From the NCBI GenBank assembly GCA_018064475.1, contig JAGHVD010000020.1:1-41241 (forward strand): 41,241 nt of DNA. Direction: 5' to 3'. Shown here one piece after another: positions 8,251 through 32,435 of the stretch. Position numbers and translations under genes: made by a program. The notes under the pieces were generated by a model that was given only the letters and a program-made list of their open reading frames with translations, ran no database searches and was not told the origin of the DNA. Numbering within the stretch: position 1 is the stretch's first letter; the number at the start of each line of letters is the position of its first letter. The stretch is from Candidatus Scatonaster coprocaballi (GTDB lineage: Bacteria; Bacillota; Clostridia; Saccharofermentanales; Saccharofermentanaceae).

Positions 8251-8306
8251 TCATTTGGAAAAGTACTACATTACGCAGATCATACGCAGATTAGAGAGAA
8301 GACATC

Positions 8307-9902
8307 ATGCACGCGTGCAGTTACATGGCAATCAAGAAATGTAAGAACACCCTCTACGAGAAGGTGAAGCATCCTCAGTTCTGGCTTGAGGTGCTGGTCG
8401 TGATTGCGTATTTTGCACTTTGCTTCTATCAGGAACTCTCACATACCGGTATTTCCGGCGTAATCGAAGACCCGATTCCAGCCTTTCAAGGCGGTGCAAC
8501 ATTTATATTCATACTGACGGCATTTATCGGTATGGGCATCGGTCTATCCCACGGTAATTCTTTCTTCAAACCCGCAGATATCAACCATCTGCTGGTCTCG
8601 CCGATTCGACCGGAGAAGATTCTCCTATACGGATTAGGCAGAAGACTCGGCGCCATTCTTCTGGCTACGCTTGTTCTTCTGACACAACTGATGAATCTTA
8701 GATTCTACTTCGGACTGGGCCTTCAGGAGTTACTGATTCTCATGGCTGCATGGTTTATGTTGACCTTCGCGGTATCCTTCCTTTCATTGGGAATCTATTC
8801 CGTGACGGCCACCCGTCCATGGATCCGTCATCTAATCCGATTCTTCATCTATGCGACCCTCGCGGTCGTGGTGACGGGCGCGGTGCTGGCGCTGTGGCGA
8901 AGCGGACGACCGGTCCGTACTTCACTTGATTATCTCAATCGTACCTACCTGCGCATGATTCCAATCAGCGGTTGGACATCCGGCTTCTTGGTCGAGGCGA
9001 TGGCGGGGAACTGGTATCAGGCCGCAGTGTATGCAGCGATGCTTCTCGTGCTTCCATTCATCGGACTTCTCCTCGCCTTTGCAAGCCGCTCCTCGTACTA
9101 TGAAGATGTTGTCCTCTCGATCGGTCATACCTATGGCAGCATCGAAGAAGAACGCACACCTTCCCGTGGCGATGTAAGAAGACGTTCCGGCAAGCGAAGC
9201 AGATCCCGCCTCCTTGGAAGAAGGACCGGGGAAGTCGTGCTGATGCAGCGCCAATTGACTGAACAGAAGCGAAGCCTGATGGTGCTGTTCGACCGAAGTT
9301 CTCTCGGCATGCTGGCCATTGCTGTGGTGCTGGGTGCGATCCTCCGTTCGCTGATGCGCAAGGGCATGTATCCAATCATCATGCAGATCATCGGACTTCT
9401 CGTGCTCTGCTACTGTATGCTTTTCCTGATTCCAATGGGCAGATTCGTTGAAGAACTGAAGAAACCGTTCATCTTCCTGATGCCGGGAAATGCTTTCCGC
9501 AAACTCTTCTATGCGTCGTTCTCCTCTGTGGTCAAAGCACTCGTCGAGGGGGTCGTCTCGCTTGCCGTGCTGGCCTTCTTTGCAAGGTTGAACCCGGCAT
9601 ATGTACTTTGCGGGGGATTCTTCTATACCTCGGCGGCGATGCTCTTCTGCGCCGCCTACCTCGCGTCCATACGTGTATTAGGACTTTCCAATTCCAAGAC
9701 CTCTCATATGGTGATGGCCTTTGCCATCATGACGGCAGTCTTCCTGTTCGAAGTATTCATCGGTGTAGGAATAGGTACCCAGTTCTATGAGATCTCCGAA
9801 CTACTGTTCCCACTTGTGTTTGTCGTGACCGGTGCGGTCAATCTGGTCGTGTCGATGTCCTTCTTCTACAGTTCACGAAGCATTTTGATGTATCGCGATT
9901 AA
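8307..9902 (+). CDS. Putative ABC exporter membrane subunit (ABC_export-like family)
   Basis: A 531-residue polytopic membrane protein with about 10-12 hydrophobic helices. A polar loop rich in Arg/Lys/Ser lies near residues 270-305 (sequence like SRGDVRRRSGKRSRSR), most likely cytoplasmic. It matches my memory of the Firmicutes 'putative ABC exporter' family that always follows a CcmA-like ATPase: an N-terminal KNxLYEKVKHPQFW start and an LLVSPIRPEKILLYGL loop that probably meets the ATPase. It sits directly after such an ATPase gene. The start ATG 8307 has agagagaag 6 bases upstream; an ATG at 8325 is possible. Substrate unknown. Confidence 0.72.
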   Translation: MHACSYMAIKKCKNTLYEKVKHPQFWLEVLVVIAYFALCFYQELSHTGISGVIEDPIPAFQGGATFIFILTAFIGMGIGLSHGNSFFKPADINHLLVSPIRPEKILLYGLGRRLGAILLATLVLLTQLMNLRFYFGLGLQELLILMAAWFMLTFAVSFLSLGIYSVTATRPWIRHLIRFFIYATLAVVVTGAVLALWRSGRPVRTSLDYLNRTYLRMIPISGWTSGFLVEAMAGNWYQAAVYAAMLLVLPFIGLLLAFASRSSYYEDVVLSIGHTYGSIEEERTPSRGDVRRRSGKRSRSRLLGRRTGEVVLMQRQLTEQKRSLMVLFDRSSLGMLAIAVVLGAILRSLMRKGMYPIIMQIIGLLVLCYCMLFLIPMGRFVEELKKPFIFLMPGNAFRKLFYASFSSVVKALVEGVVSLAVLAFFARLNPAYVLCGGFFYTSAAMLFCAAYLASIRVLGLSNSKTSHMVMAFAIMTAVFLFEVFIGVGIGTQFYEISELLFPLVFVVTGAVNLVVSMSFFYSSRSILMYRD

Positions 9903-9951: not shown

Positions 9952-9986
9952 CATAATCGGTAAGTAATGTTCTGGAGGGGATGTCT

Positions 9987-12416
9987 ATGAGTAGAGTTGC
10001 GCAACGCATCTTGTCGACGATTCTAGCTGTGTCGATGATGATTCCACTTGCTGGTTGTAAGCATAAGAAAGCAAAGAAGACTGTTGATGCTTCTGACCCA
10101 TATTTCGATAGATCCGAAGCCGAACTCGTTCTGGAAGGTGACCCTGGGAAGACCATGGATCGATTCTGGATCAACTCCGCAACGATTATGGGCAATACGG
10201 TGGCGGCCGACTATACGATCACATATAAGATGACACCGGAGATCGAGGCCGAAATCGAGCAACTATACTCGGAAGAGCTGACGGAAGAAAACTACGAACG
10301 CATGTATGAGATCACGAAGGAATACACGGAAAATGGTATTGCATTCTTCGATTTAGCAGGAAAGCAGATCTCCAAGATCAAGCTTGACGTGACCGACTAT
10401 ATCAATATCGTGAAGACTGACGGTAAGGGAAATCTGCTGCTTCTTATGGACCATGTGAATGAAGGTGATCCATTAACATTCGAGGATCCATCGTTCGAGT
10501 GGAGCATATGCAAATATTCTCCGGAAGGCGAACTCATCATGAAGACGATTCTACAACCACCGGAGTCGGCCTTTAACGAGATGATTCCATTATCGGATGA
10601 CTCCTTCATCATTACGGAATACGACAGGATGATGAAGATCGATGCAGATGGCAAACTGCTTTGTGAGGAGAAGATCGAGAACGGCACCGTGCTCCAGTAC
10701 GGAAATCAGATCTACCTCAATAACTGGGAGGAGTCTGGTGATACAACGAAGAACTACATCTCAGAGATTGACGTCAATACACTGAAGGTCAAAACGTCGA
10801 CGAAGAAAGATGTGAGTTTGCGCGAATATACATACTTGGGATTCAGTAACTGTGATGACAAGTGCTATTGCTGTGGGACGAATGGAATTGAGATCGTCGA
10901 CCCCATGGCGGACAAAAGTGAAATGTTCATGGAATGGGATAGTGTCGATATCAATTATGACCGATTAATGAGTTCCGTATTCCAAGTGAAATCCGAAGAT
11001 GAAATCGTATTTGTTAATATGGAGTATCACGAAGGTGGAGAGAAGGGTCCGGTTGCGAAAGTGATTCACTTGACCCGCGCGGAGTCCAACCCACATGCCG
11101 GCAAGACATATATCGATATGGGTGCTTTTCAATTACCTTCGTCGGAATTCGTCGACTACATCGTGGAATACAACACCAGTAAAGATGGACTGGCACGCAT
11201 ACGCCTCCATGACTATGCTTCAGAAATGGCCGGGGTATCTGACGAGAATATTGCGAAACTTTCCGAGAAAGTCTATCTGGATCTCATGAGCGGTAGTGGA
11301 CCGGATATTCTTCTGAATTTCTCCGAGTTCAGCCAGTTCAATTCAGAAGAGGTGTTGGTGGACTTAAATACATTCATCGACGGTTCCAACGGACTGAACC
11401 GTGATGAGTATTTCGATAATGTTTTCCGCGCTTTCGAGAAGAACGGAAAGATGTTCCAGATTCCGGTCTGTGTAGATATCTCAGGACTGCTTGGTAACAA
11501 GGAGATGATCGGTGAGCGTACCGGTTGGACCTATTCGGAGTTCACGCAGATCGTCGAGACTTTGCCGGAGGATGTGTCGGTCTTTGAAGATATGAAGTAT
11601 GAAGACCTCCTCAAGTTGCTTCTCGGCCATTCCATGAAAGATCTGATCGATTACGAGAAGAAGGAAGTCTACTTCGACGGTGACGAATTCAAGCAGATCC
11701 TCCAGATCACCAAGAAGTACGGTCTGGCAGAACTGCCGGATGAGAATCTTGAAGGCTGGGGCATAGCCGAAGCAGATTCTGATGCGATCATATGGGTCGG
11801 TGATGACATCATGCCGCAAATGGGCGATGGTGGATATATCTCCCCGGAAGACCGTATGAATGAAGGCCTTCTGGCTTTGAGAAGTGCCTATGTCTATTCA
11901 TTAGACAGTTACGCCTGGATGACCTCTACTTGTAATGGCAATGCCATCTATGTGGGTGTTCCGTCGCCAGATGGAAGTGGTGTATCGGCAGTCCCGATGA
12001 TGACTTGCGCCATCTCTGCATCTTCGAACAACAAAGAGGAGGCTTGGGACTTTATCCGACATCTCTTTGATGAAGATGCCCAATATAAATACACCACATC
12101 CTGGTTTTCGATTGCATTGAACCGCAAGGCCTTCAATCGGATCAACGACGATGCCATGGCGGAGAATGCCAAGTATGCCCAGGAGATTGAAGAGGGGTAT
12201 ACCGATGGGCTGTGGGACTTCCAGCGGATTACTCAAGAAGACCGGGACGGATTCCAAGCATTGGTCGAGAATATCAGTTCCATCTCATCAACGGACCAGG
12301 CGGTCATGAACATCATTCTGGAAGAAGCAGCGGCGTATTTTGCTGACCAACAGAGCCTCGAGACAGTGTGCAATAACATCCAGAACCGCACAGCGAATAT
12401 TGTCAGAGAACGTTGA
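9987..12416 (+). CDS. Large lipoprotein: N-terminal propeller-like part joined to an ABC solute-binding (family 1) part
   Basis: An 809-residue exported lipoprotein with a signal peptide ending LAGC (C24). Residues about 40-365 show repeated strands of the type 'G..I.K......D..GN.L.L', as in beta-propellers. From about residue 370 the sequence becomes a sugar-type binding protein: LMSGSGPDILLN, VLVDLNTFIDGSNGLNRDEYFDNVF, EEAWDFIRHLF. Ordinary family 1 binding proteins have 400-550 residues, so the extra half is notable. The start at ATG 9987 is favoured by GGAGGGG 6-8 bases upstream; ATG 9981 is too close. It has a close paralogue just downstream, followed by two permeases, so both are likely receptors for that importer. 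The propeller assignment is a pattern guess. Confidence 0.75.
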   Translation: MSRVAQRILSTILAVSMMIPLAGCKHKKAKKTVDASDPYFDRSEAELVLEGDPGKTMDRFWINSATIMGNTVAADYTITYKMTPEIEAEIEQLYSEELTEENYERMYEITKEYTENGIAFFDLAGKQISKIKLDVTDYINIVKTDGKGNLLLLMDHVNEGDPLTFEDPSFEWSICKYSPEGELIMKTILQPPESAFNEMIPLSDDSFIITEYDRMMKIDADGKLLCEEKIENGTVLQYGNQIYLNNWEESGDTTKNYISEIDVNTLKVKTSTKKDVSLREYTYLGFSNCDDKCYCCGTNGIEIVDPMADKSEMFMEWDSVDINYDRLMSSVFQVKSEDEIVFVNMEYHEGGEKGPVAKVIHLTRAESNPHAGKTYIDMGAFQLPSSEFVDYIVEYNTSKDGLARIRLHDYASEMAGVSDENIAKLSEKVYLDLMSGSGPDILLNFSEFSQFNSEEVLVDLNTFIDGSNGLNRDEYFDNVFRAFEKNGKMFQIPVCVDISGLLGNKEMIGERTGWTYSEFTQIVETLPEDVSVFEDMKYEDLLKLLLGHSMKDLIDYEKKEVYFDGDEFKQILQITKKYGLAELPDENLEGWGIAEADSDAIIWVGDDIMPQMGDGGYISPEDRMNEGLLALRSAYVYSLDSYAWMTSTCNGNAIYVGVPSPDGSGVSAVPMMTCAISASSNNKEEAWDFIRHLFDEDAQYKYTTSWFSIALNRKAFNRINDDAMAENAKYAQEIEEGYTDGLWDFQRITQEDRDGFQALVENISSISSTDQAVMNIILEEAAAYFADQQSLETVCNNIQNRTANIVRER

Positions 12417-12432
12417 ACGTAATAAAAGAAGA

Positions 12433-12446
12433 TGACAAAAATGTCA
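12433..12446. promoter_or_regulatory. TGAC-N6-GTCA palindrome 2
   Basis: TGAC aaaaat GTCA, 16 bases after the stop of the first large lipoprotein gene and just before its terminator. Confidence 0.4.
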
Positions 12447-12449
12447 CCC

Positions 12450-12483
12450 AAGGCCGTGTCAAAGTGACACGGCTTTCATTTTC
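12450..12483 (+). terminator. Rho-independent terminator between the two large lipoprotein genes
   Basis: A 12-bp stem (core gccgtgtca / tgacacggc, loop aag) followed by tttcattttc. Some transcripts from the first lipoprotein gene should end here. Confidence 0.8.
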
Positions 12484-12500
12484 TTTATAGGTGCTTCTCC

Positions 12501-12529
12501 TATAATCTACTTGAACTTAGAAGTGGAGG
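12501..12529 (+). promoter_or_regulatory. -10 box and ribosome site of the second large lipoprotein gene
   Basis: TATAAT at 12501-12506 and GTGGAGG at 12523-12529, 7 bases before ATG. A -35 near 12478-12483 is poor. The gene therefore has its own promoter after the terminator. Confidence 0.5.
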
Positions 12530-12536
12530 TTTTAAC

Positions 12537-15002
12537 ATGAAGCACGTAGCAGAAAAACTGTTGACGTTAGTCTTAGCGAGCGCGCTGATCCTGCCAGTAA
12601 CAGCATGTAGCAAAGGAAAATCAGCGAATGGCGGTTCTGGCGGAAGTAATGACCATAGTACGCCTTTGAAGACAGGTACGATCAAGGAGGATGATCCATT
12701 CTTTCAGTGTACCGAGGCGAAGCTTGATACAAATGTCGCAATCGATCCTACTAGAAAGGCAGAATATACATATTTCGGTGACTTTGTTTTCGCTGGGGAA
12801 AATGTACTTCTTAATTATTCAATTTCCTATGTTGTTCCACCTGAAGTGACGAAACGTATGGAAGATTTCTGGTTGAGCCCCGATCCTCAGACCGATTCAG
12901 AAGAATATCTGAAGCTTCAGAAGGAATATAACTCATATTATGATACGGGCATCCTGATCTTCAATCAAAATGGCGAACTGGTGAAGAAAATGGCTTCCAG
13001 TGGCGATGTTGTCGTGGAGTATCAACTCTTGGCCACTTTGCCGAATGGTGATGTCTACTTGACAGAACAGAAAATGAATCCTGGAGAATGTTGTGGCGAC
13101 ACGTCTGTGATCTGCATAGATAGTAATGGTGAGAAGAAGAATCAACTCAAACTTGATGAGGAAATCATGTATTCCGGTGTGACGAGTATTTTCCCAGTAG
13201 AGAACGGGAATCTTCTTGTTGGTACATGGGGCTGCATATATTTGGTCGATGAATCCGGCAAAACACTGACTAAACAGGAAATCGCGGACTGCTCCGGTCG
13301 CATTCTCAAGCAGGATGGGAAATACTATGTACTGACAAATATCTTCGATATGAAGAATTATGAAAATATATGCAAGCTCCAGGAGATTGACCCGAAGGAA
13401 CTCAAACTGATTGGTACGTCTTACGATGTATCGTCGGATCTGATGTTTTCGATTCAGAGCGAGGATTCAACCTATGTACAGGAATTGGATGGACTCAAGC
13501 GCTACGATCTCGAGACAGGTGACAGCATTTCAATCATGAATTGGAATGATGCAGATGTGAATCGTCTCTACTTCAACGGTGAGTGTCAGGTTCTTTCAGA
13601 AAATGATTTCAGCATGATTGCTACGAGAGTATTCAAGGGGAGCGACAGAGAGTATACATTTGAGTACTCCATTGCTCATTTCACACGTTGTGAGAAGAAT
13701 CCGCATGCAGGACAGGACATAATCAATGTAGCGGTTTTTGAAACAATGACCGAACAATTCATGGATTATGTGGTGAAATACAATACTGACTCGCAGGCAA
13801 AAAGCCGTGTGAATGTAGGATTCTATTACGATAGAAGTGTAGAAGGTGCGGATACGCTGGCAACTGGAACTGAAGTCGATAAGCTTTATCTAGATATGTT
13901 CGCTGGAGACGGCCCGGATGTATTGGTCAATTTTGCTTCTATGAGTCAGTTCAATACAGATGAAGTGCTGGTGGATATGAATCAGTTCATCGATGGTGCG
14001 AACGGACTGAATCGTGATGAATATTTCGACAATATCTTCCGTGCATACGAATCCAATGGCAAGTTGTACCACGTACCGACACTTCTAGAGGTCAACGCAT
14101 ATGCGGTGAACGAAGACCAGCTAGGTGGACGAACCAGTTGGAGTTACGATGATTTCAAAGCAGTAGCATCCAGCGTACCATCAGATATGTCTATATTTGC
14201 GGATATGAGCAAAGAAGACGTGATGCGCGAATTGCTGATGGTATCCGGCTCTGCTTTCGTAGATTATGAGAAGAAAGAGACCTATTTTGATTCCGAGGAT
14301 TTTAAGAAACTTCTGGAAATTGCGAAGACATATGGTGAGGAACCAAACCCCAATGACAATATAGTGTCGGTTGGTGATGGTATGATGCCTATTGTTGCAT
14401 ATGATGAAGATATTTTCCCATCGGCTAAGCTGGATAATGATATGCTTCTGATGATGAGAGTCTATCTGAACAGTGTCAGTGCATATGCAGAGAACACGAG
14501 GTTTCGTAACGGCAAAGTGAAGATGATGAGCCTTCCGACCCCGAATCAGGATGGATATGCTGCATCTACGCTCATGAGCTTCGCTATCGCGAACGCCTCC
14601 AAGCATCAGGATGAAGCATGGGACTTCGTCAAATTCATGTTTGAGAAAGAACAACAAGTCACGATGGCTACTGAAAATGCCTATATCCCGGTACACAAAG
14701 AGGCGCTGAATCAAGTAATCGATGCGCAGTACAAAGAGTATGACTATCTCAAGAAGGTCGCAGAAGAAGCGAAAAAAACAGGACTGGATTGTTACTGTGA
14801 GCTGGAATATGACCTGACAGAAGGAATGCGCGGAGAATGGATCGCCATCGTTGAGAACATTGGCAGTGTGAGCCAGTTCGACTCGCGTGTGCTCGCGATT
14901 ATCGAGGAAGAGGTGCCTGCATACTTCCAAGATCAGCGAAGTGTGGATGACGTATGCAAGAACATCCAGAACCGTGTACAGAATTTGGTTCAGGAACGTT
15001 AA
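12537..15002 (+). CDS. Second large lipoprotein, paralogue of the first (propeller-like + solute-binding parts)
   Basis: An 821-residue lipoprotein with signal peptide ending VTAC (C24) and a Gly/Ser linker. It has the same layout as the gene before it: residues about 45-370 of repeated beta-rich sequence, then a family 1 binding domain. The two proteins share near-identical stretches such as EVLVDMNQFIDG followed by NGLNRDEYFDN, and the same ending with 'ICNNIQNR..N/VQNLV-QER', while their N-terminal halves diverge. This is a tandem duplication, perhaps for different sugars. The start has GTGGAGG 7 bases upstream. The next gene, a sugar-type permease, begins 269 bases later behind an inverted repeat. 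Confidence 0.75.
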   Translation: MKHVAEKLLTLVLASALILPVTACSKGKSANGGSGGSNDHSTPLKTGTIKEDDPFFQCTEAKLDTNVAIDPTRKAEYTYFGDFVFAGENVLLNYSISYVVPPEVTKRMEDFWLSPDPQTDSEEYLKLQKEYNSYYDTGILIFNQNGELVKKMASSGDVVVEYQLLATLPNGDVYLTEQKMNPGECCGDTSVICIDSNGEKKNQLKLDEEIMYSGVTSIFPVENGNLLVGTWGCIYLVDESGKTLTKQEIADCSGRILKQDGKYYVLTNIFDMKNYENICKLQEIDPKELKLIGTSYDVSSDLMFSIQSEDSTYVQELDGLKRYDLETGDSISIMNWNDADVNRLYFNGECQVLSENDFSMIATRVFKGSDREYTFEYSIAHFTRCEKNPHAGQDIINVAVFETMTEQFMDYVVKYNTDSQAKSRVNVGFYYDRSVEGADTLATGTEVDKLYLDMFAGDGPDVLVNFASMSQFNTDEVLVDMNQFIDGANGLNRDEYFDNIFRAYESNGKLYHVPTLLEVNAYAVNEDQLGGRTSWSYDDFKAVASSVPSDMSIFADMSKEDVMRELLMVSGSAFVDYEKKETYFDSEDFKKLLEIAKTYGEEPNPNDNIVSVGDGMMPIVAYDEDIFPSAKLDNDMLLMMRVYLNSVSAYAENTRFRNGKVKMMSLPTPNQDGYAASTLMSFAIANASKHQDEAWDFVKFMFEKEQQVTMATENAYIPVHKEALNQVIDAQYKEYDYLKKVAEEAKKTGLDCYCELEYDLTEGMRGEWIAIVENIGSVSQFDSRVLAIIEEEVPAYFQDQRSVDDVCKNIQNRVQNLVQER

Positions 15003-15004
15003 AG

Positions 15005-15018
15005 TGACGATTTAGTCA
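15005..15018. promoter_or_regulatory. TGAC-N6-GTCA palindrome 3
   Basis: TGAC gattta GTCA with arms extending to seven bases (aagtgac/gtcactt), starting within 3 bases of the stop of the second lipoprotein gene. Confidence 0.4.
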
Positions 15019-15150
15019 CTTAACGGTCACCCTATAGTCATTCTGAAATGAGAGAATGAAAATGTCGAAAGGGAGAACTCCTTACATACCAAATACTCCC
15101 TGACGATCAATAGATAGAACCTGTACTATCTTCTATTTACTTTCATACCC

Positions 15151-15181
15151 TGGGAGCGAGGATCACCCCCCCTCGCTCCCA
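15151..15181. other. Strong hairpin without a T-run
   Basis: An 11-bp perfect GC-rich stem (gggagcgagg / cctcgctccc plus a T-A pair) with a 9-base loop. No T-run follows on either strand, so it may be a pause, processing or mRNA-protecting structure rather than a classical terminator. Confidence 0.6.
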
Positions 15182-15216
15182 ACCCTCCTCAAAACTGAAA
15201 AGAGTAAAAAACTACG

Positions 15217-15252
15217 TCGCAGTATGATAAAATAATTTTGGTCATACTGCGA
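15217..15252. promoter_or_regulatory. 11-bp perfect inverted repeat upstream of the permease operon (candidate operator)
   Basis: Arms tcgcagtatga (15217-15227) and tcatactgcga (15242-15252) flank a 14-base AT-rich spacer. A possible -10 (TATGAT, 15223-15228) is inside the left arm, and the permease ribosome site begins 9 bases after the right arm. The position suits a repressor site controlling the operon. Confidence 0.55.
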
Positions 15253-15271
15253 AATATGTGAAGGATACGAA

Positions 15272-16195
15272 ATGGCAACGAACGACTTTAATGCGGATGA
15301 AATACGAAAGAGAAAACTGCGCGGAAAGCGAAGGAAAAGCATCCGTGAATGGTTCGTATTCACCGGATACTTAACGCCGAGCCTCCTGGGTGTCCTTCTT
15401 TTCTTCTTTGGACCGATGTTGATCGTGTTGGTCCAGTCCTTCCAAAGAAGTTCCACCAACACGGAATTCGTAGGTCTCAAGAACTATGAGACGGTCATGA
15501 ACAATCAAGCTTTCCAGAGTGCCGCGAAGAACACATTGATCTTTGCCGGACTTGCGGTTCCGCTGGCCGTGCTGCTGTCACTCTTCCTTGCCTTGCTGCT
15601 TAGCTCGAAGATTCCAGGTAAGAGTGTGTTCCGTAGCATCATGCTGAACCCGATGATGGTGCCGGTTGCATCCATCGTGCTGATCTGGCAGGTCATGTTC
15701 AGTTATAACGGTGCACTCAATACCTATCTGGGATGGTTCGGTGTCGACAAGATCGACTGGATGAAATCTTATTGGTCAAGGTTCGTAATCCTAATCCTTT
15801 TCCTGTGGAAGAACCTAGGATACAACATGGTCCTCTTCATTTCCGCAATTGCGGCGGTTCCGCAAGAACAGCTGGAATCCGCGAAGATGGACGGTGCCAA
15901 TGCGGTGAAGCGATTCTTCAGCATCAAGCTTCCATACCTGTGGCCGACCATCTTCTTCGTCGGTATCATGTCCTTGATCAATTCCTTCAAGATCTTCCGT
16001 GAAGTCTATCTTCTGTCCGGTGACTATCCGGTAGATGAAATCTATATGTTGCAGCATTTCATGAACAATATGTTCTCGCATCTGGATAATGCGAAGCTGA
16101 CTGCGGCGGCCATCATTATGTGTATTGCGATGATCATCATCGTCGGCATACTCTTTATTGCGGAGTACCGACTGGGTAAGGATACGGAGGAGTAA
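15272..16195 (+). CDS. Sugar-type ABC transporter permease, MalF/UgpA class
   Basis: A 307-residue inner-membrane permease with six predicted helices. A basic N-terminal cytoplasmic region (RKRKLRGKRRKS) precedes the typical first helix GYLTPSLLGVLLFFFGPMLIV. The EAA loop that docks onto the ATPase is clear: EQLESAKMDGANAVKRFFSIKLP. It pairs with the next permease to form the channel of a CUT1 carbohydrate importer; the two large lipoproteins upstream are likely receptors. Ribosome site AAGGA is 6 bases from the ATG. No MalK/MsmK/UgpC-type ATPase is in the window; many Firmicutes CUT1 systems share one encoded elsewhere. Confidence 0.88.
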   Translation: MATNDFNADEIRKRKLRGKRRKSIREWFVFTGYLTPSLLGVLLFFFGPMLIVLVQSFQRSSTNTEFVGLKNYETVMNNQAFQSAAKNTLIFAGLAVPLAVLLSLFLALLLSSKIPGKSVFRSIMLNPMMVPVASIVLIWQVMFSYNGALNTYLGWFGVDKIDWMKSYWSRFVILILFLWKNLGYNMVLFISAIAAVPQEQLESAKMDGANAVKRFFSIKLPYLWPTIFFVGIMSLINSFKIFREVYLLSGDYPVDEIYMLQHFMNNMFSHLDNAKLTAAAIIMCIAMIIIVGILFIAEYRLGKDTEE

Positions 16196-16199
16196 AGAT

Positions 16200-17294
16200 A
16201 TGAAGAAGAATGAGATTACTCCACTGCAGACGTTAACGAAGGATACAGGTGCGAAGAACCAGAGTCCTTCGGTGCGCGAACCGGATACCCATGCATCGAT
16301 CCGAGAAGTCCATGCCAATGAGATCGAGATCGTTCGTCTTTCAGATGAGGAACTGGCAAAACTTCATGAGAAGGGACGTTCCGATGCACGTCGTCGTGCG
16401 AAGGTACGCACGGTGCGTGAGAAGATCTTCGTTACGCTCGGCGTGATCCTTGCAGTCGTTGTGGCCATCTTTGCCTTGATGCCGATCGTCTTGACGATCC
16501 TCGATTCCTTCATGTCTACGGATGAGATCAAGACCAACTACAGTGCGGTCTTCAATAGCTTATCGTCCGCGTCTTCCGAGTCGAAAGTCTATCTGTCTTC
16601 TACACCAAAACTGAAGATGATTCCGGACATGGTCTCCTTCAGTCAGTACAAGACACTCCTGTTCCTCAGCCCAACGTATCTTCTGAAGTTCTGGAACTCT
16701 GTGGCCTTGGTGGTACCGATCGTGTTCGGACAGATCATGGTGGCCTGTCTGGCGTCCTACAGTTTCTCGCGATATAGAAGAAAGAGAAGAGAAGTTCTGT
16801 TCTTCTCCTATGTCATCTTGATGCTGATGCCTTTCCAGGTTACGCTTGTGCCGAACTACCTGATCGCGAACAAACTGAACATCTACAATACGTGGTGGTC
16901 GATCATCTTGCCGGGTGTTTTCTCCACATTTAGCGTATTCCTATTAACGAAGTATATGAGACAGATTCCGTCGTCATATATCGAGGCTGCGAAGCTGGAC
17001 GGTGCGAACGAATGGCAGATCTTCACGCGCATCTCCTTACCGATGTGTAAGAGTGCGGTGTTTGCCATGGCAATCCTGTTGTTCATCGACTACTGGAACA
17101 TGGTCGAGCAGCCACTGATCCTTCTTGAAGATGCGAGTAAGCAACCGTTGTCGGTATTCTTGTCGCAGATCAATGCGTCCGAAGTCGGCATCGCTTTCGC
17201 TGCATCGTTCATCTTCATGATCCCGCCGCTACTGATCTTCCTCTACGGGGAGCAATACCTGGTTGAAGGTATTTCCCGTTCGGGCATTAAATAA
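16200..17294 (+). CDS. Sugar-type ABC transporter permease, MalG/UgpE class, with long cytoplasmic N-terminus
   Basis: A 364-residue permease. The first ~80 residues are polar and mostly charged (QSPSVREPDTHASIREVHA..., then RRRAKVRTVREK), much longer than the short N-tail of most MalG proteins (about 275-300 residues in total). Between the first helix and VSFSQYKTL there is an extra Ser-rich external loop (FNSLSSASSESKVYLSS). The EAA loop reads SSYIEAAKLDGANEWQIFTRISLP. The start ATG 16200 has GGAGGAG 7 bases upstream and lies 4 bases after the stop of the first permease, so the two are translationally coupled; an in-frame ATG at 16158 inside the previous gene is less likely. Confidence 0.86.
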   Translation: MKKNEITPLQTLTKDTGAKNQSPSVREPDTHASIREVHANEIEIVRLSDEELAKLHEKGRSDARRRAKVRTVREKIFVTLGVILAVVVAIFALMPIVLTILDSFMSTDEIKTNYSAVFNSLSSASSESKVYLSSTPKLKMIPDMVSFSQYKTLLFLSPTYLLKFWNSVALVVPIVFGQIMVACLASYSFSRYRRKRREVLFFSYVILMLMPFQVTLVPNYLIANKLNIYNTWWSIILPGVFSTFSVFLLTKYMRQIPSSYIEAAKLDGANEWQIFTRISLPMCKSAVFAMAILLFIDYWNMVEQPLILLEDASKQPLSVFLSQINASEVGIAFAASFIFMIPPLLIFLYGEQYLVEGISRSGIK

Positions 17295-17325
17295 TGACTT
17301 GATGGTATTTTAGGAGGTTTTGACT

Positions 17326-19134
17326 ATGTCAGACACAAGCAAGAAAAAGAATAAGAAGAAAGTGATCATCAAGGTCCTCGTGATCTTCCTTGTCGCGATG
17401 GGATTATTGACCTTCTTCTCCAATACCATCATGAACATGACGTTGACGCAGGTCAGCACGCAACAGGTCTATGGTGCAACATTAAGTTCGATCAGCCGCT
17501 CGTCCGGTATGGTCCATGCCAATGTCGAACAGCAGGTCAAAGCACCGAGTGACCTGAAGATTGCGGGTGTCAATGTCTACCTCTACCAGGAAGTGGAAGC
17601 GGGCGACGTACTGGCTGTGCTGGATGTTCCGGAAGAACGGACAGATCTGGAAGAAGCACGTAAAGCCTTGGAAGAGGCGGAGAAGCAGATGGAGTATGAC
17701 AACCGAAAACCATCTGAGAACAGTGACTTCTACGACATGGAGATGGCTGTCTACGATGCGCGTAAGGCAGTCGATGAAGCAAAGAAGAATCTAGAAAATG
17801 CGAAGAACAAGGATACACTGATTGCGCAGACCAAGAGCGATATCAGTACATTGGAAGGTCAGATCACATCTCTTAAGAAAGAGAGTGAGGTATTGTCTAA
17901 CAAGCAGGAAGAGGCAGAGGGACAACGTTCGATGGCCTACGAGAACCTTGCGATGTATCAGGAGACTTACGATGCAGCCAATGCGACATTAAGTTCAGCA
18001 ACCGCACAGCGCGATCAGGCACAGTCCGCATTGGATACGGCCAATGCGAATCTGGCTGCTTGCATCTCCGATCCGGCAGATCCGAATTTCAGCCAGGAGA
18101 CACTGGACGCCTGCAATCAGGCAGTAGTCGATGCGCAGGAAGTATTGAATACAGCTTCTTCGGAAGTTGAATCTGCCCAGAGTGAGGTTGATGCGGCAAA
18201 GAAAGATCTGGATTCTGCACAGGCGGCCTACGATTCAGCAGATGCTACGGTCGCTTCCTATATCAGTCAGATCACGGACAAAGAGAATGCAGTCGCGGCC
18301 AAAGAGACGGAACTTCAGAACAAGCAGACGGATCTGGAAGGATACGAGGGCCTGCCGACGACGGCCGATGCGGAGCGCACACTGAAGGATGCACAGCATA
18401 CGCTGACCGCTTCCGAGAAGTCTTTGAATGATGCACGAATCAATGCCGGCATCAGTAGCGATCAAGAGAAAGATGCGAAAGACGAGAAGGAGAAAGAACT
18501 GGAGAAGCTTCGCGATCAAGTCAAGAAACTGGAAGAACAGTATGGTGTGACGGAGGTCGTAGCGCCGATTTCAGGCAGTGTCATTGCCATCAATGTGGAC
18601 CGCAATTCGCAGTGCATGAAGGACGATGTACTCTTCGTCATCGCAGATATGAATTCAGGATTCTACATGGAGTGCCCGGTAAGCAAGAATGAAGCGGCGA
18701 ACATGTATATCGGATGTGAAGTGAAAGCAGATTATTGCGATAGTGCTTACGTTGAATCCATGCGACCGGATCCGATGGACCCGATGAATTCTGTGATCCT
18801 GCGTGTTGCACTGGAAGCACAGTATATCCAGCCTGGCGCGTCGACCATCAGTTGCACGATTGCAACCTCCAACCGAAGCTATGAGAATGTGGTGCCGAAG
18901 GGGGCAGTACAGGAAGATAGTGAAGGTAAATTCATCTATATTCTGGTGACAAAGAACAGCCCACTCGGTGAGCGATATATCGCGAAGAAAGTACCGGTCA
19001 AAGTCATTGCTGAGGATGCGACGTCCTGTGCAATCGAAGGTGCCGGTGTCAGCTTCGCCTACTGTATCATTCGTACAGAGAAGCCTATTCAGAACGGTGA
19101 ACAGGTACGCCTTGCACAAGGAGAAGCAAACTAA
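17326..19134 (+). CDS. HlyD/MacA-like membrane-anchored adaptor with long coiled-coil hairpin
   Basis: A 602-residue protein with a short basic N-terminus, one membrane helix (about residues 9-35) and a large extracytoplasmic part. A lipoyl-like half (KAPSDLKIAGVNVYLYQEVEAGDVLAVLD, 72-100) leads into about 300 residues of Ala/Glu/Gln-rich coiled coil, after which the second lipoyl half returns (VVAPISGSVIAINVD and CMKDDVLFVIADM, about 410-442), then beta-barrel-like sequence. This is the layout of periplasmic adaptor proteins of tripartite exporters, here in a probable single-membrane organism. ATG 17326 has TAGGAGG 8 bases upstream. It follows the MalG-type permease by 31 bases and overlaps the next gene by one base, so it is in the same operon. 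Confidence 0.8.
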   Translation: MSDTSKKKNKKKVIIKVLVIFLVAMGLLTFFSNTIMNMTLTQVSTQQVYGATLSSISRSSGMVHANVEQQVKAPSDLKIAGVNVYLYQEVEAGDVLAVLDVPEERTDLEEARKALEEAEKQMEYDNRKPSENSDFYDMEMAVYDARKAVDEAKKNLENAKNKDTLIAQTKSDISTLEGQITSLKKESEVLSNKQEEAEGQRSMAYENLAMYQETYDAANATLSSATAQRDQAQSALDTANANLAACISDPADPNFSQETLDACNQAVVDAQEVLNTASSEVESAQSEVDAAKKDLDSAQAAYDSADATVASYISQITDKENAVAAKETELQNKQTDLEGYEGLPTTADAERTLKDAQHTLTASEKSLNDARINAGISSDQEKDAKDEKEKELEKLRDQVKKLEEQYGVTEVVAPISGSVIAINVDRNSQCMKDDVLFVIADMNSGFYMECPVSKNEAANMYIGCEVKADYCDSAYVESMRPDPMDPMNSVILRVALEAQYIQPGASTISCTIATSNRSYENVVPKGAVQEDSEGKFIYILVTKNSPLGERYIAKKVPVKVIAEDATSCAIEGAGVSFAYCIIRTEKPIQNGEQVRLAQGEAN

Positions 19135-20378
19135 TGGAGATTCGGACTAAGCTGAAAAACTATGCTGTCCGTAAGTGGGGCGACATCTGCCGGCATACCC
19201 ATTACGCGCTGCTGGGCATTCCTTTCGCCTTTGCGATTGGTGCACTGATGTTGGGTGTTGCTTCCGTGATCCGCATCAATCAGGTGCTGGACGGGCAAGC
19301 CTTCCAGTATGCGGCGGAGCAGTACGAGGCGTCATCTTCGAATTATCGCCAGTTGACGGTGCTGTCCAGTTCGCTTCGACAGGATGACGGTTCTGCACCG
19401 CGTGCTACGTCGGAAGGACTTAGTGCGCAGAAGGTACAGCAACTGCATGAATCATTGGAACTGATCGAGCGTTCCAATACAGGCGGCATGGGTGCGCGTC
19501 AGAACAACTTCGGCAGCAGTAACGAAACAGCGATTTGGAAGGATTGTTACTCCAGTACGGCCTTCTATCCGGCAATCGGTTCGATCAATGGTACGGAGAC
19601 CGGTTCTCTGGAAAGATGTGAAATTGTGGGTGTGAGTGGTGATTATGCAACCATTCATCCGTTCCGATACGAAAGTGGCGGGTTCCTCTCGCCGGAAGGT
19701 GGAGACCGATATGCAATCGTACTGAATACGCAGATGGCGTGGAATCTTTTCCACTCTTTCCAGGTGACAGGTGCTTCCGTTACCATCAATGGCAGTGTCT
19801 ACCAAGTATGCGGCGTGGTATGTGAAGGGGATGATGCAATCGCAGAGACGACCGGTGTCACCGATGCCCGTGCCTATATATGCTTCGAGCAACTGGCCAA
19901 TCTTGCCAACGGATCTTCTGTACCGTCGAATTCGTTCGACCAGGAAAATGCAGTAACTGTCGATAGTCTGGCGGTCATGAGCTACGAAGTACTCCTTCAA
20001 GATCCAATCGATAACATTGCTTATAACGATCTCGTCGCAGCCATGGGTGAAGTCCTCGGGTACTCAGAGGGCAGTAAAGATATTCAGATCATCAACAACA
20101 CCGGAAGATTCAGTGCATGGAAATTATGGAAGAAGTATTTCCCGCTGAAGAATGCTTATGCCGGCTACGATGGTATGTCGGTGCCGTTCTACGAACGAAG
20201 TGCACGACTTGCGGAACAGTATATCGTATTCTGGGCCGAAGTGCTGGTGGCGTCCATCGTGGTACTGATCGTGGCCGGGTGCCATATCTACGTGACCTTC
20301 CACGGAAGAAATACGAAACACGCGCAACAGGATGAGGAGGATGAGGATGAGATCATTCCGCAAATCCAGCGAGTGTAA
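19134..20378 (+). CDS. Two-helix membrane protein with a MacB-periplasmic-core-like extracellular domain
   Basis: A 414-residue protein with a membrane helix at about 22-45 (LGIPFAFAIGALMLGVASVI), an external region of about 310 residues, a second helix at about 365-390 and a very acidic cytoplasmic tail (DEEDEDE). The external part reads like the core domain of MacB/FtsX-type permeases: CEIVGVSGDYATIHPFRYESGGFL, then YAIVLNTQMAWNLFHSF and VTINGSVYQVCGVVCEGDD. Classical MacB has four helices and an ATPase; here two helices and the ATPase are missing. Its ATG overlaps the adaptor stop (TAATG), so the two products probably act together like a MacA-MacB pair. I do not know a named family with this architecture. 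Confidence 0.6.
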   Translation: MEIRTKLKNYAVRKWGDICRHTHYALLGIPFAFAIGALMLGVASVIRINQVLDGQAFQYAAEQYEASSSNYRQLTVLSSSLRQDDGSAPRATSEGLSAQKVQQLHESLELIERSNTGGMGARQNNFGSSNETAIWKDCYSSTAFYPAIGSINGTETGSLERCEIVGVSGDYATIHPFRYESGGFLSPEGGDRYAIVLNTQMAWNLFHSFQVTGASVTINGSVYQVCGVVCEGDDAIAETTGVTDARAYICFEQLANLANGSSVPSNSFDQENAVTVDSLAVMSYEVLLQDPIDNIAYNDLVAAMGEVLGYSEGSKDIQIINNTGRFSAWKLWKKYFPLKNAYAGYDGMSVPFYERSARLAEQYIVFWAEVLVASIVVLIVAGCHIYVTFHGRNTKHAQQDEEDEDEIIPQIQRV

Positions 20379-21453
20379 GACTTCAAAGGAGAAGAAGAAC
20401 TCTGCAAGGCGAGGCACTTGGATGCCCCGTATGTGGAGTTTTTTCGTTGTTTTAAGCCTTCTTGCCTCGCTTTCCGCTTGCAAGAAGAATACCCCCCACG
20501 CGTCGGTCAGCCTCTTCGCACTGGATACTTATGTGACGATTTCAGCAGATGGCCAAGAAGCGGAAGAAGCGGTCCAATGTGCATCCACGACACTTCATAT
20601 CTATGAGGAGATGTTCTCTCGCCATCATGAGGGCGGCGAGATCGCGTTGCTGAATCAAGCGACAGCCGAACAGCCGGTCACGTTGTCAGAAGAGACATAT
20701 CAACTGCTGTCTTTGACTTGCGAGTATGCAGTCCTGACCGATGGTACTTTCGATCCGACGGTTGCACCGTTGATGGATCTTTGGGGAATTGGTACGGAGA
20801 ACGCACGGGTGCCGGGCGATGATGAAATCAGCGAGGCGCTCACGAGGATCGATTACCACAACATCCAGTTGCTGCCGAATGATCAGGCGTATGTGAAAGA
20901 CGGCACACAGGTGGACCTTGGCGGTGTCGCAAAAGGCGCGATCGGCGACCTTCTGATGGCGAAGATGCGTGAGTTTGATGTGACCAAGATCATCTTAGAT
21001 CTAGGTGGCAACATCTGTGCCTGGGCGAAGGACGATTCACTTCGTGTAGGCGTGATTTCACCAAAGAAAACGGATGCCCAGGATCCGCAGTCTATGTGTG
21101 CCATCGTAACGATCACAGATGCGGATCTGCCGATGTCTGTCGTGACCAGTGGTGCGTATGAGCGATTCTTCGAACAAGATGGTATCCGCTACGGACACAT
21201 TATGGACACCCGAACCGGTGCCCCGGTTCAGACCGACCTTCTTTCCGCCACCATTGTAGGCAGTGACGGGACGGTGTGCGATATCCTGTCGACCACGCTA
21301 TACGCGATGGGGTTGGAACGGGCCAGAGACTGGGCCCAAGAAAAACATATCGACTGTATTTTGTGCGCAGAAAATGGTACATTATGTGTATCTACATCGC
21401 TAAAGGGGCGCGTCGATGCCGAAGAAGGATGGACAATCGAATACTTCGGATAA
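20347..21453 (+). CDS. apbE: ApbE: FAD:protein FMN transferase, lipoprotein
   Basis: The enzyme moves FMN from FAD onto a Ser/Thr of secreted or membrane redox proteins, on the outer side of the membrane, using Mg2+. Signs: signal sequence with lipobox LSAC (C45 from this start), ALDTYVTI, TDGTFDPTVAPL, VDLGGVAKGAIGD, DLGGN, SGAYERFF and the metal-site region HIMDTRTGAP. Length is 368 residues. I chose ATG 20347 because AGGAGG (20335-20340) lies 6 bases upstream; ATG at 20332 and 20341 are too early, while 20422 would give a more normal signal peptide but lacks a ribosome site. It overlaps the previous gene by 32 bases and the next by 38, in an extracytoplasmic flavin cassette with the next two genes. 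Confidence 0.92.
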   Translation: MRSFRKSSECKTSKEKKNSARRGTWMPRMWSFFVVLSLLASLSACKKNTPHASVSLFALDTYVTISADGQEAEEAVQCASTTLHIYEEMFSRHHEGGEIALLNQATAEQPVTLSEETYQLLSLTCEYAVLTDGTFDPTVAPLMDLWGIGTENARVPGDDEISEALTRIDYHNIQLLPNDQAYVKDGTQVDLGGVAKGAIGDLLMAKMREFDVTKIILDLGGNICAWAKDDSLRVGVISPKKTDAQDPQSMCAIVTITDADLPMSVVTSGAYERFFEQDGIRYGHIMDTRTGAPVQTDLLSATIVGSDGTVCDILSTTLYAMGLERARDWAQEKHIDCILCAENGTLCVSTSLKGRVDAEEGWTIEYFG

Positions 21454-21910
21454 ACTTTCCACACCGCATCAGGCGTGTGGGCAACATCTGCCGCCCCGAC
21501 ATTTCCGATTCGCTTCCGGAGATGTGTTCCTGATCATTGCAATCCTTGTGTTCTGCGGCATCCTGATTACAGGTATGCTGGTGCGAAGACACACCTTATC
21601 CAAGAAAACACCATACGTACGGATCACCGTAGACGGAAGCGTCGTCATGAACCGAGCGTTGAGTGCTTTTGCCGACGAAACGGAATACCGATTAGCGACC
21701 GAGAATGGGGAAGTCGTGGTCATCCTCAACGACCACGAAGTCTATATTCAATCCAGCGACTGCCCGGACCAGATCTGTGTACAGACAGGCAAATTAACGA
21801 AGCCCGGTGACGGCGCGATCTGCCTCCCAAACAAGATTGTGGTGCAGATTGTGGCGGGATCTTCCGATTCGGGAGAAACTGACGGAAAGGTGGATGCGGT
21901 GGCAAAATGA
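21416..21910 (+). CDS. NusG domain II (NusG_II) membrane-anchored protein
   Basis: A 164-residue protein with a cytoplasmic N-tail, one membrane helix (about 37-57, VFLIIAILVFCGILITGML) and an external domain with the diagnostic block SSDCPDQICVQTGKLTKPG followed by AICLPNKIVVQI. The two Cys in DCPDQIC are typical of the family. In Firmicutes such genes travel with apbE and Gx-transporter genes, and as I recall similar proteins occur in the Listeria extracellular electron transfer locus (EetA). The exact role is unknown; assistance in flavin export or electron transfer is inferred. The start lies inside the end of apbE, with aaagggg 7 bases upstream, and the stop overlaps the next start as ATGA. 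Confidence 0.85.
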   Translation: MPKKDGQSNTSDKLSTPHQACGQHLPPRHFRFASGDVFLIIAILVFCGILITGMLVRRHTLSKKTPYVRITVDGSVVMNRALSAFADETEYRLATENGEVVVILNDHEVYIQSSDCPDQICVQTGKLTKPGDGAICLPNKIVVQIVAGSSDSGETDGKVDAVAK

Positions 21911-22431
21911 AGAAACACTGGACAGCTTTCCAAATTACGAAACTTGCGATCCTCCTGGCGCTTGCGTTGATGTTGAGCATTCTGGAGGCGTGGCTGCTGC
22001 CGAAGGGCATTCTACCGCTTCCAGGCCTGAAACTTGGCCTGGCCAACATTGCTATTCTGGTGACGCTTTATACGGTGGGGAAGAAAGAGGCGCTGTTACT
22101 TGCCATACTCCGCTCACTTGTGGTCCTCGTATTGGGCGGTAATTTTGTCGGATTCGTATTCTCGATGCTCGGAGGCGTGTGGGCTTGGTGCGCCATGTGC
22201 CTGCTTTGTGAAAGAAAACACGTGTCAATATTCGGAACCAGCATCGGCGGTGCGGCCTGCCACAGTATCGGTCAGATCATGGCGGCGATGCTCATGACAC
22301 GGACCGTCTATGTGCTGGTCTATCTGCCTTATCTGATACTTGCCAGTTGCGCGATGGGCGCTGTGATTGCTTTCCTGACGATTCCGGTGGTACGTGCGCT
22401 CGACCATTTGGGAAATCCAGTGATACAATAG
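21907..22431 (+). CDS. Gx-transporter family membrane protein (PF07456; old name heptaprenyl diphosphate synthase component I)
   Basis: A 174-residue, very hydrophobic protein with five or so helices. It shows the family blocks LMLSILEAWLLPKGILPLPG, LKLGLANIAIL and GGNFVGFVFSMLGG, which resemble substrate-binding S-components of ECF transporters. The GLKLGLAN motif and the genomic link to ApbE and NusG_II suggest a flavin- or quinone-linked role rather than real prenyl synthesis; as I recall, EetB of Listeria is of this type. It overlaps the NusG_II gene by 4 bases (ATGA), so it is translationally coupled. It is the last tightly linked gene of the long operon. Confidence 0.85.
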   Translation: MKKHWTAFQITKLAILLALALMLSILEAWLLPKGILPLPGLKLGLANIAILVTLYTVGKKEALLLAILRSLVVLVLGGNFVGFVFSMLGGVWAWCAMCLLCERKHVSIFGTSIGGAACHSIGQIMAAMLMTRTVYVLVYLPYLILASCAMGAVIAFLTIPVVRALDHLGNPVIQ

Positions 22432-22509: not shown

Positions 22510-23328
22510 ATGAGAAGAAACGAGAGTCCTTTCTGGCCGAGAAGAAGTATCCTTCATCCGGCTCCTCCGAAGACCCCGGTGGAACCGGTGCGTCGTGTGC
22601 GCATGACCTTAACACGGGAAGAACAACGCCAGATCGATAGCGTTGCGTCCAAGGATTATTCACTTAGTATTTCCATCTTAATGGAACATGCCGGACTTGC
22701 TTGTGCCAACGTCAGTGCAAGTCTTGCCAAAGCCACGACTACGCCGATCCATATTTTCGCCGGCAAAGGAATGAACGGCGGCGACTCTTATGTGGCGGCC
22801 AGACTTCTGAAATCCTGGGGATTCCATGTGACCATGTGGGATTGTTTTCCCGCTGAGTCACAGTCCAATGCTGTACTGGCCAATCGCCGTGCAGCAGAAG
22901 CTTTCGGTGTGAAGATCCGCCCGGCAAGCGAATTTGATCCGAATATCTGGCAGGCGGGCATCTCCCGTATGATTCATGAAGAAGAACCCGGTATGCCTTG
23001 TGTACTGGTCGATGGCATCATCGGCAGCGGTTATGAATACTCACGTCCGCTGCCGCCGTCTCTGGTAGCGATCACAAGTCGGATCGAAGAAGGACACCGC
23101 CGCGGTGCGAGAGTGCTCTCCATCGATATTCCGACCGGCGTGGATTGTAATACAGGAGAAGTTGATCCAGGCGCCGTATCGGCAGATGTTACGGTGTCGT
23201 TCGTACTGCCGAAGAAGGGCATCACGGTTGCACCTGGCCGCTATAAAGCGGGACAGATCAAAGTGCCGACCCTGGGACTTCCCATCAACTTTGCAGATAT
23301 CGTGCTGGGTCCAGTCGAGAAGCCGTAA
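22510..23328 (+). CDS. NAD(P)HX epimerase-like protein (YjeF N-terminal domain only)
   Basis: A 272-residue cytoplasmic Rossmann-like protein. The YjeF_N domain starts near residue 33 after a Pro-rich basic extension. Motifs: LMEHAG (58-62), GKGMNGGDS (85-93), VDGIIGSG (167-174) and DIPTGVDCNTG (206-216). The enzyme epimerises damaged R-NAD(P)HX so that a dehydratase can repair it. Most bacterial versions are fused to the dehydratase; this one is not, and no dehydratase is in the window. The usual NNGGDG is changed to MNGGDS, so activity is not certain. The ribosome site GGGAGG is 7 bases before ATG. It lies 78 bases after the Gx gene and may share its transcript. Confidence 0.78.
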   Translation: MRRNESPFWPRRSILHPAPPKTPVEPVRRVRMTLTREEQRQIDSVASKDYSLSISILMEHAGLACANVSASLAKATTTPIHIFAGKGMNGGDSYVAARLLKSWGFHVTMWDCFPAESQSNAVLANRRAAEAFGVKIRPASEFDPNIWQAGISRMIHEEEPGMPCVLVDGIIGSGYEYSRPLPPSLVAITSRIEEGHRRGARVLSIDIPTGVDCNTGEVDPGAVSADVTVSFVLPKKGITVAPGRYKAGQIKVPTLGLPINFADIVLGPVEKP

Positions 23329-24104: not shown

Positions 24105-24135
24105 TGTTTCATGATTTTTTGATAGGGAGATGCGG

Positions 24136-25575: not shown

Positions 25576-25671
25576 TCCGAAATACACGAAACCGTTTTCG
25601 AGTTCGCATTTCTTTGCTTTTTCCCGATAATACTTGAAAAACACCCGCTTTTATCGCTATTTTGCATGGGC

Positions 25672-25686
25672 GAAACGTTCCGTTTC
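25672..25686. promoter_or_regulatory. Candidate LacI-type operator before cellobiose phosphorylase
   Basis: Inverted repeat GAAACG-ttc-CGTTTC. It covers the expected -35 position of a -10 box TATGAT (25701-25706). The GAAACG half-sites are like those of many LacI-family sugar repressors and of CcpA cre sites, though the 3-base centre is not typical. Confidence 0.5.
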
Positions 25687-25747
25687 TCAAAGAAGTATTG
25701 TATGATATATGTACCTGAAATTTACATATTAAGGAGGCATATATCAC

Positions 25748-28228: not shown

Positions 28229-28249
28229 TAGAGAGGTTCTAGTACCAAA

Positions 28250-29308: not shown

Positions 29309-29338
29309 ATGGGTCAATACGATTCATAAAGTGTGGTG

Positions 29339-29359
29339 CGTGACATCCTTTGTGTCACG
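29339..29359. promoter_or_regulatory. Inverted repeat in the leader of cellodextrin phosphorylase
   Basis: Arms cgtgaca and tgtcacg with a 7-base spacer, ending 6-7 bases before the AGGAGG ribosome site (29366-29371). It could be an operator or a hairpin near the ribosome site. Its TGACA/TGTCA halves recall the TGAC-N6-GTCA palindromes around the large lipoprotein genes, with different spacing. Confidence 0.4.
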
Positions 29360-29377
29360 TAGATTAGGAGGTTCTCT

Positions 29378-32359: not shown

Positions 32360-32392
32360 TTTCAACCCTTTTTCAAATTCATAGGATCTACC

Positions 32393-32435
32393 AAGGGGGT
32401 ATCTCATCGTGGTGTAAATCACGGAGATACCCCTT
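32393..32435. other. Long two-part hairpin after cellodextrin phosphorylase
   Basis: The outer stem aagggg(g)tatctc / gagatacccctt encloses a second stem cgtgg / tcacg. There is no T-run after it on either strand. It may stop, pause or protect the highly expressed phosphorylase message. Confidence 0.55.

Follow-up and report, generated by a model that had tools for sequence, protein, structure and literature searches.

What joins a sugar importer, two proteins that resemble parts of an export pump and a set of extracellular flavin genes on one strand of DNA? The question is raised by a 41,241-nucleotide stretch from Candidatus Scatonaster coprocaballi (contig JAGHVD010000020.1, hereafter the window), part of a 2.23-Mb genome in 105 contigs. 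Open reading frame (ORF) calling and a Pfam scan confirm nine ORFs, all on the + strand and all with the domains expected from an earlier sequence-only reading, which had placed them in one machine or pathway. Four of these genes, encoding a MalF-type permease, a MalG-type permease, a MacA/HlyD-like adaptor and a protein resembling the periplasmic core of MacB, recur together in a large number of distant relatives and so suggest a sugar importer composed in part of export-pump components. With moderate confidence, we favor the view that the core of the locus is a type I (MalFG/UgpC) ATP-binding cassette (ABC) oligosaccharide importer carrying a dedicated MacA/HlyD-like adaptor and the MacB-core protein on its outer face. 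The conserved gene unit, the MalG subfamily to which it belongs, the joint presence and absence of its members, their domain make-up and the linkage of an ATPase gene in relatives are all direct observations.

Within the unit, the MalF-type permease (15272-16195; BPD_transp_1, 7e-16) has an intact EAA loop and is 61-88% identical to the 12 family relatives aligned with it. The MalG-type permease, a member of the subfamily that we term HlyD-linked (16158-17294; BPD_transp_1, 2e-15), has TTG at 16158 as the first codon of its ORF and a likely start at ATG 16200. It is followed by the adaptor (17320-19134, ATG 17326; 604 aa; HlyD_3, 2e-5) and the MacB periplasmic-core protein (19134-20378; 414 aa; MacB_PCD (PF12704), 6e-10). 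From MalF to the last flavin gene, the sequence-only reading had given spacings of 4, 31, -1, -32, -38 and -4 bases. All are reproducible with the MalG start at ATG 16200, the HlyD start at ATG 17326 and an internal ATG in ApbE, with the reservation that the 32-base overlap depends on the ApbE start chosen: at its lipoprotein-like start (ATG 20422, with AAGGCGAGG just upstream), a 43-base gap follows the MacB-core gene.

To describe how far the unit extends, we label fetched loci L, genomes G, families f and the genera of the window's family g1-g5, g1 being the genus of the window. A MacB-core protein is found in 106/115 family genomes at E <= 1e-3, 102 of these at E < 1e-20. Among 40 family regions (20 from g1 and 20 from four other genera, 15 of them g5), the order MalF-MalG-HlyD-MacB-core is kept in 38, while contigs end in the remaining two (L044 and L073); L031-L034, from Clostridiales metagenome-assembled genomes of which three derive from water buffalo or sheep gut, were taken as L061, L070, L069 and L071 and counted once. 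Beyond the family, a MacB-core profile was run against 391 class genomes and 20 regions around strong matches were fetched. The order is complete in 16/20 of these, L116 and L123 are cut by contig ends, L124 reads HlyD-MacB-core-SBP-MalF-MalG (SBP, solute-binding protein), and L125 lacks MalFG, holding an ordinary MacA-ATPase-MacB set instead. Because these 20 loci were chosen by MacB-core, they demonstrate conservation and not unbiased linkage. The four genes are found jointly in twelve families within the class sample (f1, f3, f9, f23, f26, f27, f28, f41, f54, f61, f71 and f83) and in three beyond the class (f89, f109 and f157). Since relatives keep this order at short first-start gaps (-76 to +49 bases within the unit), it is not due to chance, and the possibility that it is an oddity of one strain is refuted by the family and class regions alike. 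Of the longer order whose conservation the sequence-only reading had proposed as a check, from the first permease to the Gx gene, the first four genes recur across families and ApbE-NusG_II-Gx are seen to follow them only in g1-g4.

The members of the unit are also present, missing and duplicated together. Across 113 family genomes scored for linked MalG (E <= 1e-100) and MacB-core (E < 1e-20, a threshold chosen once the matches were known), 99 have both, 13 have neither, one has MacB-core only and none has MalG only. The single mismatch (G094) coincides with a contig end, and 7 of the 13 genomes without either gene are at least 90% complete. L191 carries a tandem duplication of the unit, its second HlyD being read as two ORFs, and the unit occurs in two places in G829 (L212 and L214) and in G102 (L062 and L063). 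Across 51 loci, the four proteins of the unit show correlated pairwise distances (r 0.90-0.97), a figure that includes shared species history.

The MalG permease provides a view of the linkage from the importer side. A profile built from 20 linked proteins was run on 398 phylum and 391 class genomes, with at most five candidates scored per genome, such that the counts are lower bounds. Linked-type MalG (>= 230 bits) is present in at least 47/391 class genomes and at least 8/398 phylum genomes, five of the latter lying outside the class; the remaining matches score 218 bits or less, apart from the linked group. We compared 26 high-scoring regions picked by MalG score with 12 low-scoring controls containing ordinary MalG. 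HlyD adjoins MalG/MalF in 25/26 of the MalG-picked loci, with weak scores (28-42 bits) in L199, L202, L206 and L207; the remaining locus (L194) has only 148 bases of contig beyond MalG. By comparison, none of the 12 control loci contains HlyD or MacB-core. In the whole pool, HlyD stands beside linked MalG in 84/85 loci, a proportion that is partly by construction, as MacB hits had guided the choice of 60 source loci. Of the 26 MalG-picked loci, 16 match the MacB-core profile, and L196, L198, L200 and L206 have a multi-helix protein beside HlyD in which the Pfam periplasmic core domain (PCD) falls below cut-off in the two that were scanned (L196 and L200). Contig ends truncate L193 and L194. 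As MacB-core is recognized in fewer loci, HlyD is the more constant partner of linked MalG.

In a quick maximum-likelihood tree of 85 proteins, from which 15 near-duplicate same-genus rows out of 100 had been removed and in which several long branches are flagged, one split (SH-aLRT 99.1) separates 70 HlyD-linked MalG sequences from 15 ordinary ones. The window MalG is 43-62% identical to 15 members of the profile alignment from other families and 22% and 25% identical to the two ordinary MalG sequences aligned with it. The linked MalG is thus a distinct subfamily, marked by the signatures NSFMSxxEI (DSFMSTDEI in the window) and WNMVEQPL. Thirty columns are conserved within it and differ in the 15 ordinary sequences. 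On an approximate topology, the outer side accounts for 18 of these, helices for 9 and the cytosolic tail for 3, while the EAA loop has none, a distribution that fits an outer-face partner combined with ordinary ATPase coupling.

The candidates for this partner are the two proteins encoded downstream. The HlyD profile matches MacA chains (4dk0, 5nik) and EmrA chains in the PDB, and the MacB-core profile matches the MacB core chains 5lj8, 5lil and 5xu1. The window adaptor has one transmembrane helix directly followed by FFSN, and an FFS(N/K)-like signature occupies this position in nearly all adaptors with an intact N-terminus, the MacA of L125 being without it. Between the lipoyl halves lie 137-391 residues across 23 adaptors (~320 in the window), a stretch that is far shorter in MacA, and the arms of the coiled-coil hairpin are estimated from its length at ~10-29 nm. 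Pro/Thr-rich stretches occur mid-hairpin, probably at the tip, in the HlyD of L036, L043 (as repeated TPEV), L046 and L048.

The sequence-only reading had called the MacB-core-like protein a two-helix protein, and hydropathy agrees: two hydrophobic segments are found in the window's family, in f28 and in most of f41, three in L115 and L120, and four to six in f23, f24, f27, f54, f71 and others. The window protein is thus a short form. A diverged FtsX domain could lie concealed in the long forms from other families, but by Pfam the FtsX domain (PF02687) is detected in 0/10 MacB-core proteins (the window and nine relatives). The ordinary MacB of L125 has both PCD and FtsX domains. No MacB-type ATPase, fused or adjacent, is found in the window unit, and on the reading that we favor, the MacB-core protein would no longer be able to act as a MacB motor.

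Upstream of the permeases lie two solute-binding lipoproteins, SBP1 (9981-12416; 811 aa; SBP_bac_8, 2e-10) and SBP2 (12537-15002; 821 aa; SBP_bac_8, 3e-20), at spacings that are not tight (120 bases between the two and 269 bases between SBP2 and MalF). SBP2, in which a CbpC-like domain is recognized, combines a propeller-like domain with a MalE-like domain, and SBP1 probably has the same two-part build, as it aligns with SBP2 over its length (31% identity). The locus therefore has the MalE-like solute-binding lipoprotein that is typical of CUT1 importers, and SBP genes are recognized in 57/70 fetched regions outside g5 (L125 left out). The cargo probably consists of β-glucan fragments. Two GH94 phosphorylase genes lie near the window unit, and GH94 is also found near the unit in L033, L048, L049 and L072; as it likewise occurs near ordinary MalFG, these genes say little about the cargo.

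A candidate motor for the importer is encoded in relatives. A UgpC/MalK-type ATPase gene lies directly behind MacB-core in 9 loci (L119, L122, L208 and L209-L214), the gene in L208 being truncated where its contig stops. For NF008653 (cut-off 432), the L119 protein reaches 478.7 bits, and it has the MalK OB fold. In the genome of the window, two OB_MalK matches are found: an ATPase on contig C13 and a second one that adjoins another MalFG pair. The C13 ATPase scores 497.8 bits for NF008653 and has no MalFG in the 14 kb around it, and this lone UgpC probably serves the window importer.

From the conservation of these genes, we infer a physical complex, an import direction, a substrate and the roles of seat and stalk for the two outer proteins. 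The lipoprotein SBPs, with their propeller-like and MalE-like domains, would catch sugar and hand it to MalF-MalG, and uptake would be powered by a UgpC-type ATPase, encoded behind the unit in some relatives and probably by the orphan gene elsewhere in the window genome. The transmembrane helix and membrane-proximal domain of the adaptor would lie against the subfamily-specific outer loops of MalG, with the MacB-core protein as the adaptor's seat, as the PCD is in MacAB. The hairpin would extend into the cell wall and keep the importer and its SBPs where the substrate arrives.

Several observations weigh against this arrangement. The joint presence of MalG and MacB-core at the family level is confounded by shared ancestry, and in at least 4/99 genomes (G007, G018, G049 and G100) the two genes are on different contigs, where adjacency is not visible. 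Five loci (L124, L196, L198, L202 and L206) carry another gene order. There is no UgpC gene in the window operon, and GH94 is found near ordinary MalFG in 2/12 controls (L218 and L221). Among the MalG-picked loci, no MacB-core is recognized in L199, L202, L204 or L207 despite the presence of HlyD. In L199, moreover, the HlyD homologue (L199:5771-6136) has only 122 aa, retaining an FVSR signature and the C-terminal part and having no hairpin, and a UgpC-type ATPase follows it. Neither MacB-core nor a long hairpin is therefore indispensable. The AlphaFold2 model of the MacB-core protein is poor (mean pLDDT 39; five sequences). Finally, no SBP is recognized nearby in 12/15 g5 loci, and in 9/15 (L035, L040-L042, L046, L047, L051, L052 and L054, with PF01841 in L046) a transglutaminase-like lipoprotein follows the unit where SBPs or the flavin cassette stand elsewhere.

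In a bolder form of the importer model, which would make it an ABC importer assembly of an undescribed class, an oligomeric MacA-like tube rests on MacB-core domains and caps the permeases, and this cell-wall-spanning intake funnels or docks oligosaccharides and propeller-bearing SBPs onto the permease, reusing the tripartite pump architecture for import. We regard this form as possible but rather doubtful: a mandatory tube is hard to maintain because the L199 HlyD has no room for a hairpin and some loci are without MacB-core, both of which are better fitted by a docking or regulatory clamp. It is unlikely, though worth serious consideration, that HlyD and MacB-core constitute an envelope device of their own that clears peptides, senses stress or remodels the cell wall (roles proposed for YknXYZ or YtrBCDEF), is energized in trans or not at all and is merely co-regulated with the importer. 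The resemblance of both proteins to MacAB parts, the g5 units with their transglutaminase-like lipoprotein and mostly unrecognized SBPs, and the long MacB-core forms with room for a diverged FtsX would suit such a device. Such a device, however, would be hard to reconcile with linkage to one MalG subfamily and none to ordinary MalG, with outer-face MalG residues specific to that subfamily, or with a unit in which neither FtsX nor a MacB-type ATPase is detected and for which the adjacent ATPase in relatives is UgpC-type. The same SBP-poor g5 loci, together with the long adaptor hairpins, could instead indicate that the permease pair works in the other direction or on other cargo, such as cell-wall glycan or a lipid-linked sugar, with an HlyD tube as the conduit. 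We consider this improbable given the SBPs recognized in most regions outside g5, the GH94 genes near some units (with the caveat of the two controls) and the EAA loops and UgpC-type ATPase of the unit and its relatives. EAA loops and a UgpC-type ATPase are hallmarks of importers.

Operons can also hold unrelated genes, and HlyD and MacB-core may simply have hitch-hiked beside an ordinary sugar importer. The much faster evolution of the accessory pair (median identity of 24% for HlyD and 19% for MacB-core versus 46% for MalF and 50% for MalG) is in line with this idea, but the joint occurrence of the four genes in so many families within and beyond the class, their joint absence and the duplication of the whole unit make it decidedly improbable. 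Least probable of all, and already disfavored, is the full hybrid in which flavin transfer by ApbE, together with NusG_II and Gx, belongs to the transport machine. The short-gap adjacency of these genes to the unit in g1-g4 speaks for it, with ApbE-NusG_II-Gx following the unit in 17/20 g1 and 5/5 g2-g4 loci; of the g1 exceptions, L065 is cut, while L070 and L071 have the genome's ApbE on another contig. Against it, the cassette is not seen beside the unit in any of 15 g5 loci or 46 regions outside the family (20 class and 26 MalG-picked loci), although for some of these regions little sequence is available past the unit, and the operon's proteins contain no flavinylation-like motif. The importer with its adaptor and MacB-core protein is thus what we retain of the proposed single machine: these components are conserved, missing and duplicated together and are backed by the UgpC/MalK-type ATPase in relatives, whereas the inclusion of the flavin part finds no support.

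The flavin cassette instead appears to be a lineage-specific neighbor outside the core machine. All three of its genes are present in the window: ApbE flavin transferase (20332-21453; ApbE, 2e-70), a NusG domain II protein (21416-21910; NusG_II, 4e-26) and the ECF-S-like Gx membrane protein (21907-22431; Hpre_diP_synt_I, 4e-32). The window genome also has what we read as an rnfCDGEAB operon on contig C13 (L128:5901-11115), with FMN_bind matched and an SGAT motif in RnfG. In the 113 family genomes, RnfE is found in 28 and ApbE in 32: 27 have both, one (G103) has Rnf only, five have ApbE only and 80 have neither. By comparison, ApbE is present in 31/99 family genomes having linked MalG. In the family sample, RnfE is found in g1-g4 but missing from every g5 genome, and the pattern is largely one clade-level difference, yet it separates ApbE from the importer unit. 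By co-occurrence, then, we observe no functional tie of the cassette to the unit; the cassette tracks Rnf, and its likeliest job is the attachment of flavin mononucleotide to Rnf.

Compared with described systems, the core would be classed as a CUT1-kind importer with extra subunits and not as a MacAB system, as the window protein has no FtsX domain and the unit no MacB-type ATPase. It shares with MalFGK2/UgpABCE-type (CUT1) importers a pair of BPD_transp_1 permeases that have EAA loops, MalE-like SBPs and, in some relatives, a UgpC/MalK-type ATPase gene behind the unit; it differs in that its MalG subfamily bears outer-face signatures of its own and in having two extra outer-face proteins, which are found beside none of the 12 ordinary controls. 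With MacAB (type VII, mechanotransmission) and the Gram-positive YknXYZ and SpMacAB, it shares the MacA-like adaptor and MacB periplasmic core by profile, whereas FtsX is detected in none of the ten proteins scanned and the unit is joined to an importer. The nearest described mixture that we found is YtrBCDEF of Bacillus subtilis, a multi-part ABC system with two nucleotide-binding and two membrane-spanning proteins, in which the MacB-core protein YtrF likewise accompanies other permeases; YtrF retains an FtsX-like domain, and neither MalFG nor HlyD is named in the available part of that source (PMC8060467). In the open-access literature, to which our search extended with subscription papers outside its scope, we found no description of a MalF-MalG-HlyD-MacB-core unit. 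For the cassette, we take NusG_II and Gx to correspond to EetA and EetB. In contrast to the described systems, the window cassette probably serves Rnf. An ApbE gene beside an ECF-S-like membrane protein is also a feature of described cassettes, with eetA-eetB in 3,328 genomes and eetB-apbE in 2,169 (PMC9973259).

Descriptions of HlyD/MacA-type adaptors place them in export machines, and what they do in bacteria that have no outer membrane is called an open question (PMC5985334). If our reading is correct, such parts also serve uptake, adaptor genes now annotated after efflux systems gain a testable job, and two subunits are added to one of the best-studied transporter types.

A further feature of the locus is the 269-base untranslated region between SBP2 and MalF (15003-15271, + strand), which is strongly conserved and contains several stem-loop candidates. 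Its mean column identity is 68% over 12 same-genus sequences, unlike the preceding SBP, which is mostly only 33-40% identical. A 23-base block within it (15125-15147) is exact in 20/20 same-genus loci holding the region (the window, L055-L072 and L074), absent from all 20 loci of other family genera and single-copy in the window genome. At ~15152-15180, there is a 10-bp GC hairpin. Rfam gives no match for the element, and since it hardly varies, support for pairing is limited (two-sided changes in 2/31 pairs). We consider it a candidate regulatory RNA or processing site. In the gap between SBP1 and SBP2, the strongest terminator-like hairpin of the scanned stretch (12450-12476, 12 pairs) suggests that SBP1 may be partly transcribed apart.

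The surroundings contain additional transport and binding genes. Directly upstream on the + strand (7324-9902) are a DrrA-like ABC ATPase and a PF16962 'ABC_export' permease, as in many same-genus loci; the corresponding place in L108 is taken by a GntR-type regulator, a different ABC ATPase and a permease of 730 aa, and L109-L112 also have an ATPase upstream. Downstream (24130-36505) lie a further SBP_bac_8 lipoprotein, the two GH94 genes and two lipoprotein-like genes of 654-661 aa without a Pfam match, such that many binding-type proteins are encoded near one permease pair. Between these and Gx, a YjeF_N (NAD(P)HX epimerase-like) gene (22510-23328) follows the flavin cassette, as it does in 17/17 cassette-bearing same-genus loci and 5/5 g2-g4 loci.

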